Position numbers and translations under genes: made by a program. Shown here piece by piece: positions 47,144 to 61,655 of a stretch of 64,000 nt of DNA (positions within the stretch are counted from its first letter, which is position 1; every line of letters begins with the position of its first letter). Source of the stretch: Leucosporidium creatinivorum (Eukaryota; Basidiomycota; Microbotryomycetes; Leucosporidiales; Leucosporidiaceae). The stretch spans positions 1,344,808 to 1,408,807 of the forward strand of contig BCKL01000001.1 of NCBI GenBank assembly GCA_001600635.1, in the 5' to 3' direction. A model generated the notes under the pieces. That model searched no databases, was not told where the DNA came from, and was given only the letters and a program-made list of their open reading frames with translations.

Positions 47144-49708
47144 ATGGTCAAGTACACCTCCCTCCTCGCCTCTCTCGCAGCCCTCGTCGCCTTCGCCCCT
47201 CGTCCAGCAACCGCTTGGTTCCCAGGCGTCGAGCAACGATTCGTCGAGGAGAAGCTCATCGACACTGGGACATTGGGTCTACCCAACGATGGATTGGTAG
47301 CAGCCTTTGGCGACTTCAATGCAGACCAGCTGCTCGACCTGTTCTACCTCTCCGCCGACCAGCGCTCCCTCTCCCTCTACACTTGGGATCGCTCCGCCTA
47401 CCGCTGGATCGAGCAGCAGAAGGCCCGGATACGTACGAAGAGCGACTTCATCATCACCAACGTCGTCCCAGGCGACTACAACTATGACGGACGACTCGAC
47501 GTCCTGCTCATGGGCGGCAAGAACCCCGGAGGATGGTGGGGGGAGGATGAGACGGTCGAGATGCAGGTCTACTTGCAGCAGAGTGATGGTGGCTTTTGTG
47601 AGTTGCTCCTGCTTTGCACGTCTACCGAGCTACGAGCTGACCTCAGCTCGGTTTGTGCGTTCTCTCAGCGGCCTCGCATGATGTCGAATCGTCGGGCTTG
47701 GCTCAGCCAATGATTCTTGACGCTACAGGCGACATGCGGACAGATCTACTCGGTATTGCAGCCAACTCCAAGTCCAAGCCACAGCTCTGGAGGAACACCT
47801 GGGACGAGTCCAACTCGACTTCGGTCTTCAACGTGTGCGCTCAGCTCCCCTTCTTCGTCTTCTCGGCTTCTCGGCTGACCTCCGTTGCTCTCTCCCAGCA
47901 CCTCCCCTCCACTGGACCTCAAGAACTTTGACTGCAAGTTCCCCTCGCCCCACTTCAACGCCTTCATCGACCTCGACGGAGACTGCCTCGCCGACCTCTT
48001 CCTCACCTGCGAGGGCAAATCGGCCGACCACCTCTCGTACCAAATCTGGCTCAATAACAAAGATGGCAACTATACCCTCTCTCGCAAGGGCGACCTACCG
48101 CGGGGTACCAAGAGCGTCAGCTTTGCCGATATGGGTGAGTTCTGGCCGCTGGGCTCGGCGTTCGCTTCGCTGACCCTCCTTGCCTGCCACAGACCGAGAT
48201 GGAACGATTGACATGGTCATTACCTCATGCTCCTCCGTCGGCGCTTGCGACCTCTCCATCGCCTACAACCAGCAGATCCCCCTCTGCACCAGCGCACAGT
48301 CCCAGACTGAGCCTTGCCGCGACCCCGAAGCGCTCTGCGTCGCCGACAAGGACTTTAGCTTTGACTTGACGATCAAGGAGGATAACTCTGTGGGCCCCTC
48401 ATTGCTTCTCTTCAGATCGCAACTGACCCCGAGCTCTCTACAGGCCTACACCACCATACCCATCTCGACGCTCCTCCCCCATTCCTCCCTCATCACCGAA
48501 TCCACCTCCTTCCGCGGTTCCTTCCCCACCCCTCCCTCAATAGGCGACTATAACATCGACGGCTACCCTGACCTCCTACTCCTCACTTCTACCTCGGGGC
48601 AGAAGAGGGTCAACATCCTGCAGAGTCGGCCTTGCGATGTGAGCAGCTGTACGAAGGCTGAGATTGGGAAGGCGAGGAGGGCGTTTAGGGTCGTGGAGGA
48701 AGGGGCGGAGGTGTTGAGTAAGATTCATGATGCCGAAAGTGCGCATTGGTTGGATGTGGATGATGATGTGAGTCGGTTTCTGATCGCGCCAGGGGACAAG
48801 CGCTGACGGACCACGACTGTGCAGGGCTCGCTCGATATCTTGGTGCAGAGGAGTGGGAACTCGGGAGCGTCAAGGAGGGCGGTGTTTATTAAGAACAACT
48901 ACTTCCACGATGCCTTCTTCCTCAAGGCTCTGGGTGCGCCGAGCTCCTTCCCCTTCGCAGACGACGAACTGACTTGCCTCTCGACAGTCCTCAATGGCGC
49001 TTGTCAAGGATGGTGCGAGCCTACACGGGAGGGTGAGAAGCGGTATAGGGTGAGTTGGTCGAGGAGAAGAGGCTCGGTGTCGAAGCTCGGCTGACACTTC
49101 CCTCGCTCGTGGCAGCCATACGGCGTTAGCTACTCGGGCGCGTCGTTCAAGTTCACCGTCCTCGATCCCACTGGAGCACGACGATCAACTCAGTGTACGT
49201 CTCCCTGCGCCTCGTCCACCCAAGCTCGCTCCCAGCTAACCTCGGCGCTCCCCCCCTCCTCGCAGACGGACAACTTCCCCAATCCACCTACCTCTCCCTT
49301 AGCACCCCCTACTCCTACTTCGGCCTCGGCCGCACCAACAACTACGTCGAGAACCTCTTCATCGGCTCCACTCGCCATCAGCCAGAGCACTACATCAACA
49401 TCGAGGGCGTGATTCCCAACTCGCAGGTTCTCATCATTCCCTACCAGCCCGAGGGAGCGAAGGACCCGAGCACGTGGAGGAAAGAGCTGTACCTTCATCC
49501 CGGGGATTGGATCCCTTGGGTAACGATTGTGCTGGGCGCGGCCATCTTGTTGCTCGGCGCTGTCGTCCTCGTACTGCATATCAACGAGAAGGTGAGTCTC
49601 TCGCTCGGTCGAGCTACAGGGTGCTGATCGCTGACCGATACTCAACAGCGTGAGGATGACATCGAGCGGAGAGCGAGGTTACTGTCGTTAAACGTGCGTG
49701 CCCTGTAG
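47144..49708 (+). CDS. Linkin/ITFG1-like (T-cell immunomodulatory protein) FG-GAP membrane protein
   Basis: About eleven exons. A signal peptide (MVKYTSLLASLAALVAFAP) is followed by FG-GAP beta-propeller blades with calcium-binding loops: AAFGDFNADQLLDLFYLS, VPGDYNYDGRLDVLLMGG, ILDATGDMRTDLLGI, FIDLDGDCLADLFLTCEG, DRDGTIDMVITSC, IGDYNIDGYPDLLLL and VDDDGSLDILVQRS. Then ENLFIGSTRHQPEHYINIEG and a single C-terminal transmembrane helix (WVTIVLGAAILLLGAVVLVL) with a short basic tail (EKREDDIERRARLL). This is the layout of the ITFG1/TIP/Linkin family, type I membrane proteins with a lumenal or extracellular propeller. Function in fungi is not known to me. Confidence 0.88.
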
Positions 49709-50103
49709 TCTCGCGTGTCGGCGCCATCTTCCAACGCCGTTGGTGAGCTTTGCGAGATCGTTCTGTATGATAGTGGTAGACCTTCTATACCCCCGTTTTC
49801 CGTGATTGTCAAGTACCTCTCATTCGTCCGAGTTTTTTCTGAGAGACCGAGGAGAACGATCCCCTTTCTTTGCTCAAACGCTCGGCTGCGAAGCGGGCGC
49901 GAGACTTTGGAGCTTCCACGGCTTGAACTTCTGCCTCATCTCACTCGTCTGCTAGCACACATCACCACCGACATTCGCATCGCACTACAGCACATCACAC
50001 TACAGCGCCACCATCTTCCACAAAGCACAGATCCTCTCCGCACCGCCCGCTCTCACAACATCTCGCCAGCTCCGGGCTCTAGAAGAGCGGGACTCGAGCG
50101 GCC
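49709..50103. other. Intergenic, 395 bp
   Basis: It holds the 3' region of the Linkin-like gene and the promoter of the Ser-rich gene. A run rich in CACA/CATCAC (about 49954-50000) precedes the start. No gene seen. Confidence 0.45.
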
Positions 50104-60224: not shown

Positions 60225-61655
60225 ATGGACGGCATCGCTGCCAAGATCAACGCTCGCGCACCAAAGTCGCGCAAGGAGCTCAAGGTGTGTAGCTGTACAG
60301 AGGGCGCTCAGCCGCTCGCCCCCACCGTTCGCTCGCTCACTCTCTCGGCCTTCGCCTACTCCTCTTCGGCGTTTGTTCGGTTTGCCTCTTCTGCAGCCCA
60401 AGACCCACCACTTCTTCTACGTACTCGTCTGGCTGGCTGGATGGATCGCACCTCCCGTCGCCGTCTTGATTCGCTTCGGTATCGGGAGGGACTTCTTCAT
60501 CAACATCCTCTGCACCATCTGCGGTTACTTCCCCGGTCACTTCCATAAGTGAGTTGTCGCTACTTGCTCATGCTGTTCGGACACCTCGCTGACCCTCTGC
60601 TGCTCCCTCGCCCAGCTTCGTAAGTCAACATCTCGCCCGGCCCGCGCGGTGCTCCAGCCGACATGAATAAGGACTAAGCTAAACCCGTAATACTACAACA
60701 GTACTGCCAAACCATCAGGAACAACAAGACCAAGGCCAGGACGCCCAAGTGGGCCGTCAAGTACGGCCTCGTCGAGGTTGAGGACAAGCGAGGCGGCAAG
60801 CATCAATGGGCGGGACGCTACGATGGTGAGTGTTCGGCTGAGCTGTCCTTTCCGGTGCAAGGAGACAGCTAACCTCATTGAGACCGCAGAGCGCCTCCCC
60901 GACTCGTCTCGCCACGGCTACGCCGACGCCGACTCGGTCTCCTCGTCTCAGCAGAACGACGGAGCCTGGGATGGACGCGGACCCGAGCCTTCTCGCGGAA
61001 GCGGACGTCAAGGCAAGAACGGTCGCAGCGGAGGAGGAGGACTGCACCTCATGTCCCCCTGGGATCGCACCGTCGATTCGGACGAGGTCGAGGGCGCCTC
61101 GCGCGCGGGCAGCATTCGCTCGGGCGTCAACGGCAACGGCGGAGGACGCTTCGACCCCATCGACAACGAGCAATTCTTCCCCTCCACTGCCGCTACCGAC
61201 GACAGGCCCAGGAGCGTTCGGTCCAAGAAGAGCAAGAAGGGGCTCAAGGGCCTGCTCAGTCATCGCGATCGCTACGAGAACCAGGAGCCGGCGTCCAGTG
61301 GAGATAGGTTCGACAAGATGAATGCTGCAAGGGGAGGAGGACAGTCGTCGTCGTCGAGGAGGCAGGACGAGTACCAGGACGACTTTGAGCGAGAGCTCAA
61401 CGAGGGAGGCAGGAGCTCGGCGCCCGCGCCCGCGGCCAGCCGTTACGATGCGTTCGAGTCCGAGGGACCGGAAGATGCGTGGGCTTCCTCGAGGCCTGCT
61501 GAATCTGGAGCGAGGAATGGAGGAGCGCAAACTTCGTCGAAGCCGGCAGCGACGACCACCAGCGGTGGAGACGGAGATCGTGAGCTGTTCTGCTCCCCTC
61601 GAGGACGCCTTTGCTGACCTCTTTGCTCTTCGCAGTCTTCAACCACACCTTCTAA
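60225..61655 (+). CDS. PMP3/Sna-family membrane protein with long C-terminal tail; needs a 4-nt microexon
   Basis: Six exons (60225-60284, 60397-60548, 60616-60619, 60702-60825, 60890-61579, 61636-61655) give 349 residues. HHFFYVLVWLAGWIAPPVAV and GRDFFINILCTICGYFPGHF form the two membrane helices of the UPF0057/PMP3 family. HNFYCQTIRNNKTKARTPKW follows, as in larger Sna3/Sna4-type members. About 260 residues of hydrophilic, Ser/Gly-rich cytosolic tail end in FNHTF. Small PMP3 proteins affect plasma-membrane potential and ion tolerance; Sna3-like ones are multivesicular-body cargo and adaptors. The third exon is only CTTC, flanked by GCCCAG and GTAAGT. Without it the conserved HNFY junction and the downstream frame are lost. 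Confidence 0.85.
60616..60619 (+). other. 4-nucleotide microexon (CTTC)
   Basis: The preceding exon ends CATAA|GTGAGT (60548) and the following exon begins after CAG at 60701 with TACTGC. Inserting CTTC gives CAT-AAC-TTC-TAC (H-N-F-Y), the family's conserved sequence. Flanking introns are 67 nt (branch GCTGACC) and 82 nt (branch GGACTAAG). Confidence 0.85.

Follow-up and report, generated by a model that had tools for sequence, protein, structure and literature searches.

Gene Structure at the Locus

The window, i.e., the whole 64-kb stretch of DNA that was analysed, contains on its forward strand a gene with six predicted exons, the full product of which matches the Pfam profile PF01679 (Pmp3) with 49.8 bits, the cut-off being 22.9. 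Its features are collected in Table 1, together with the fourth exon that would be used by a competing structure.

Table 1. Features of the Pmp3-like gene around the four-nucleotide exon, in positions of the window.
Feature	Position	Strand	Basis
Exon 1, start codon (MDGIAAK...)	60225..60284	+	ab initio gene finder and open frame
Exon 2, bulk of the Pmp3 domain, 3′ end CAT AA before GTGAGT	60397..60548	+	PF01679 match, gene finder
Intron of 67 nt, GTGAGT...CAG, branch-point motif GCTGAC (CTGAC from 60589)	60549..60615	+	
Predicted microexon CTTC, completes N and encodes F	60616..60619	+	gene finder, frame, splice-site and family scores
Intron of 82 nt, GTAAGT...CAG, without CTNAY motif	60620..60701	+	
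Exon 4, opening with TAC (YCQTIRNNKTKARTPKWAVKYGLVEVEDKRGG...)	60702..60825	+	coding frame, gene finder
Alternative exon 4 of the single-intron structure (HKNNKTK...)	60719..60825	+	frame kept without CTTC
Exon 5, G/S/R/A/D-rich tail	60890..61579	+	gene finder, coding scores
Exon 6, including the stop codon	61636..61655	+	gene finder, open frame

When the exons 60397–60548 and 60702–60825 are joined directly (60548 to 60702), the frame shifts, because the coding frames of the two exons clash, just as the sequence-only reading of this DNA had stated. Exon 4 has a coding score of +16.9 in the HNFY frame vs. −6.2 and −5.5 in the other frames, and exon 5 reaches +60.1 in its frame vs. about −25 in the others; the coding scores of exons 2, 4 and 5 by frame therefore indicate that the assembly does contain a true phase clash. 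Between the two clashing exons stands CTTC (60616–60619), with ...CTCGCCCAG immediately on its 5′ side and GTAAGT immediately on its 3′ side. If these four nucleotides are included, the junction becomes CAT AAC TTC TAC, and translation returns H-N-F-Y, in agreement with what had been read from the sequence before. The six-exon model with CTTC is a single open frame of 349 aa. The tail had been put at 265 residues, whereas 276 aa remain after HNFY in the six-exon product.

Splice Signals and Gene Finder Results

The splice sites of CTTC are ordinary for this genome, middling or weak. It had been claimed that CTTC lies between perfect sites; the CAG acceptor and the GTAAGT donor do adjoin it, but among 376 introns the acceptor is only at the 21st percentile and the donor at the 43rd, and they cannot be called perfect. 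GCTGAC is the common branch-point motif here, and 212 of the 376 introns have CTGAC within roughly their final 60 nt; in the intron 60549–60615 GCTGAC lies 23 nt 5′ of the acceptor CAG at 60615, with no intervening AG. The more general CTNAY motif occurs in 331 of the 376 introns, at a median distance of 19 nt to the AG, and the intron 60620–60701 is without it, as are 45/376 control introns; inspection by eye points to GCTAAAC at 60678–60684, about 19 nt from the AG, as a non-consensus candidate branch point. A stricter branch-point test, where the motif has to be 12–38 nt from the acceptor with no AG between, is passed by 279 of 378 introns; the acceptor at 60615 passes it, and the acceptors at 60701 and 60718 fail. 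Regarding length, the flanking introns of 67 and 82 nt correspond to the 60th and 79th percentile, while 153 nt corresponds to the 98th. CTTC has a canonical AG before it and a GT after it, and introns of viable length on both sides, which is the pattern that characterises an ultra-short exon.

The gene finder was self-trained without homology on 264 kb (200 kb of the same genome and the 64-kb window), which yielded 92 genes and 378 training introns with a median length of 64 nt. Its penalties, gene filter and training rule had been set by hand, and this gene was not used for tuning. The output contained the exact six exons of this gene, CTTC included. After training on the other 91 genes and 376 introns alone, forbidding the microexon resulted in a score loss of 5.7 nats. 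As a control, introns were shuffled five times over in 73 genes; among the resulting 1,565 introns, a false exon of ≤16 nt was called once.

Fit to the Pmp3 Family

The Pmp3 profile has 49 positions, of which the form with CTTC covers positions 5–47 and reaches the end of the second helix, while positions 5–43 are covered by the structure with a single 170-nt intron (discussed below) and positions 5–44 when CTTC is skipped. With CTTC the Pfam Pmp3 score is 52.3 bits; a hypothetical HNY form in which F is absent (112 aa) obtained 48.3 bits, a value that is not comparable, since the length is different.

Bacterial relatives were gathered by a pattern scan of genome contigs, and the best 80 of at least 578 confirmed relatives were used. 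As the search pattern demands [HY]A, the H present in 80/80 of these best relatives (of at least 578) is partly forced by the pattern. The W/Y position is outside the pattern, and there W or Y stands at the Y of HNFY in 79 of the best 80 (again of at least 578), in keeping with the earlier placing of HNFY after the second helix. By eye, W or Y is also found at this position in six of the seven Pmp3-like paralogs in the own genome; five of the seven were taken into the paralog alignment, and L007 (W at the Y position) and L032 (I) were left out. Eight Pmp3-family genes were recognised in this genome (G000 C1, C10, C13, C21), with intron positions near the PG motif that, judged by eye, vary between genes.

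When 183 in-frame structures were compared, the one with the microexon was at the top by summed splice score, and also by splice plus family score, whether each intron was charged 0, 8.2 or 13 bits. By the family HMM alone it was second, and the structure placed first also uses CTTC, with a poor AAG acceptor at 60749. From the open 4-mers that could stand in place of CTTC, 48/244 scored above it with the mixed, mostly bacterial HMM, and 4/244 with the HMM of five paralogs. The 55-aa segment across the junction had no relative in the prokaryotic and viral contig collections, where fungal relatives are not expected. HNFYIQ is a fungal motif; a text search of the literature for it found no paper, and our literature searches brought up no Pmp3 gene with a 4-nt exon.

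Weighing of Alternative Structures

On the evidence of the sequence, the gene very probably encodes a tailed Pmp3-family membrane protein, with CTTC as a constitutive 4-nt exon, and constitutive inclusion is what we infer to be most likely. The microexon had been considered the sole route that keeps the frame, which turned out to be incorrect, as the pair 60548 to 60719 is also in frame. In the corresponding alternative, which we regard as improbable, a single 170-nt intron (60549–60718) replaces both introns and CTTC is a chance site pair; the transcript junction would be CCATAA-GAACAACAAG, and the join reads HKNNKTKARTPKW / GHFHKNNKTKARTPKW, with the loss of NFYCQTIR. Such a structure keeps the frame with one intron fewer, and it is the finder's pick once the microexon is banned, but introns of ≥170 nt account for only 4/376 in the training set, and this one has to skip past the CAG at 60701 to an acceptor, 60718, that does not pass the stricter branch-point test. 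Among the single-intron structures it ranks first with 15.5 bits over two sites, which per site is about equal to the 31.5 bits over four sites of the microexon model. The Pfam Pmp3 score falls to 46.3 bits, below the 52.3 of the microexon form, the HMM built from the 80 bacterial relatives and five paralogs gives 37.3 vs. 40.7 for the microexon form, and N takes the place where W/Y stands in the best bacterial relatives and the paralogs counted above. When splice and family scores are summed, the single-intron structure obtains 44.6 vs. 55.8 for the microexon at 8.2 bits per intron, and 39.8 vs. 46.2 at 13 bits per intron.

That CTTC is real but regulated, with skipping or retention deciding whether the tailed protein of 349 aa or another form is made, we hold to be quite improbable. 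The exon is 4 nt long, hence skipping alters the frame; retention of intron 60549–60615 gives 71 aa with Pmp3 profile positions 5–43 kept; and a precedent is offered by the condition-dependent microexon of Trichoderma Xlr2, as described in passages of PMC11121469. The sequence-only reading expected skipping to result in a truncated protein; instead, the product of skipping is a frameshifted protein of 255 aa, with a stop at 61319, and retention of the second intron (60620–60701) gives 88 aa. What speaks against a switch is that the stops after skipping (255 aa) and after retention of the first or second intron (71 and 88 aa) all precede the final exon junction by 258 nt or more, and decay of these mRNAs is likely if junction-dependent NMD operates in this fungus. 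The explanation to which we give hardly any credence is one 153-nt intron, with the phase clash due to an assembly indel near the junction and CTTC coincidental. In 382 decoys, made by removing 1 or 2 bases from other genes, the finder produced a spurious exon of ≤11 nt in 36, so an assembly indel is a small remaining risk, but only five of the exons in the 382 decoys were as well supported as CTTC. Additionally, it would require not only the indel but also a chance acceptor with a branch point and a chance donor, and when the 153-nt interval was dinucleotide-shuffled 20,000 times, a site pair equally strong around 1–12 nt arose in 75 of the shuffles; in 23 of the 20,000 there was the same strength plus a frame-restoring length. 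Among 47 control introns of ≥100 nt, there was no equally strong site pair around 1–12 nt.

Other Very Short Exons in This Genome

The predictions suggest that this genome probably contains further tiny exons. Internal exons of ≤11 nt make up 11 of the 393 called by the finder, one of which (49649) was judged wrong; at ≤16 nt there were fourteen calls including CTTC, and five of the other thirteen were scored with Pfam. The true Pmp3 gene (L003:1645-1655, G000:C13) has a predicted 11-nt exon, GATCAACGTCC, with which it scores 93.6 bits vs. 42.0 when the exon is skipped, and it serves as a positive control from the same family and genome. For the Skn1/Kre6 gene (L022), PF03935 gave 288.5 bits with an 11-nt exon vs. 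258.8 for the finder's best alternative, and for N-myristoyltransferase (NMT, L012) the form with a 14-nt exon obtained 182.8 bits vs. 162.8 for the best alternative of the finder. Ketopantoate reductase (L029) scored 95.1 bits with an 11-nt exon vs. 78.2 for the finder's best alternative, and the ab initio gain was just 0.9 nats. Runs of short exons were also noticed: the Skn1/Kre6-like gene at L022:949-1124 (minus strand) shows tiny exons of 20, 11 and 22 nt in succession, and at L029:2581-2684 (minus strand) exons of 15 and 11 nt follow each other in a predicted transporter gene, the family being assigned by eye.

Shorter candidates are a 2-nt exon CA at L014:8926-8927 in a nucleotide-sugar-transporter-like gene (PF04142, 38.6 bits with it vs. 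35.4 for the finder's alternative) and a 1-nt exon T at L015:3403 (G000:C1:1103403), flanked by introns of 63 and 79 nt, both with GTGAGT donors and with CTNAY motifs, among others, whose distances to the acceptors are 21 and 19 nt. The splice score of the latter is 40.2 bits over four sites, the best single intron reaching 14.0 over two, and the GDSL-like protein obtains 21.9 bits with the 1-nt exon, which is below the cut-off of 32.9, vs. no match without it. Exons of 5 and 8 nt were also called on L020, with weak support (1.8 and 0.8 nats). The call at 49649, a 1-nt exon C in the gene 47144–49746, was rejected: a plain exon from 49649 stays in frame by eye (REDDIERRARLLSLNVRAL, stop) and is preferred at this 3′ end of the gene (49592–49720 of the window).

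A genome-wide scan with the pattern CTGAC-N(12-24)-YAG-N(1-12)-GTGAGT found 111 matches (57 + 54), and the pattern read backwards found 54. There was no excess over two scrambled donor hexamers (111 vs. 111 and 71), so hundreds of microexons with strong signals are not supported.

Possible Mechanism and Significance

In the mechanism that we propose, the introns of 67 and 82 nt would each be recognised separately by intron definition; as each flanking intron would be recognised alone, exon bridging would be unnecessary for CTTC. The acceptor and the donor of CTTC are 4 nt apart and probably not occupied simultaneously, and since simultaneous occupancy is improbable, the two introns would be spliced out sequentially. 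The upstream intron 60549–60615, whose donor is the stronger of the two and whose branch point is canonical, would probably be the first out. To extend this tentatively, the fungus may tolerate exons down to 1–2 nt in unrelated genes (1 nt on L015, 2 nt on L014, 4 nt here and 11 nt in Pmp3), with short introns recognised singly and removed sequentially, and with no lower limit of exon length; we consider this a possibility that is rather less probable than its contrary. If it is true, exon-independent, ordered splicing in a fungus would have several natural test substrates, the tailed Pmp3 gene among them.

For annotation, pipelines that accept no exon below a set length would join this gene wrongly or cut off its tail of 276 aa, and the presence of several tiny exons within about 1% of a single genome suggests that real coding exons escape annotation in intron-rich fungi. 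In addition, such exons would be simple in vivo substrates for studying how introns 1–4 nt apart are removed.

Comparison with Known Ultra-Short Exons

CTTC would add to the ultra-short exons that are already known, and a one-nucleotide exon of a fungus is already published, in Fusarium CYP621A, where it is backed by SRA reads and 20 orthologues according to the available text of PMC12940212; there it is described as the first one-nucleotide exon from a fungus and, Arabidopsis APC11 being the earlier case, as the second in general, and exons of 2–5 bp in Arabidopsis, Drosophila and humans are cited as well. It resembles our case in that in both a fungal gene has out-of-phase exons at a conserved motif, canonical AG/GT, a tiny exon that restores the frame, and an apparent intron of more than twice the median length (PMC12940212, same text). 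Unlike the Fusarium exon, which belongs to a P450, is 1 nt long and has reads and orthologues behind it, ours belongs to a Pmp3-like gene, is 4 nt long and is predicted from sequence (PMC12940212, same text). Arabidopsis APC11 shares with CTTC a constitutive ultra-short exon in the coding frame, while it is a plant gene with a 1-nt exon, for which GFP fusion constructs were the test, as given in excerpts of PMC4674806.

Small microexons of plants (1–15 nt) are, similarly, often missed by annotation, and excerpts of PMC8831610 state that their flanking introns compete and are often spliced later; they differ in being from plants and derived from 990 RNA-seq datasets. The microexon of Trichoderma Xlr2 is also fungal, and the long form of the protein depends on it; in the passages of PMC11121469 it is glucose-responsive and switch-like and encodes PCRRCE, whereas CTTC carries no sign of regulation. 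The same passages cite Romfo et al. (2000) for intron definition in S. pombe. Finally, the P450 genes of Phanerochaete chrysosporium resemble our gene in being from a basidiomycete with short introns and very short exons, the shortest exon given in the accessible part of PMC1184071 being 6 bp, compared with 4 nt here.
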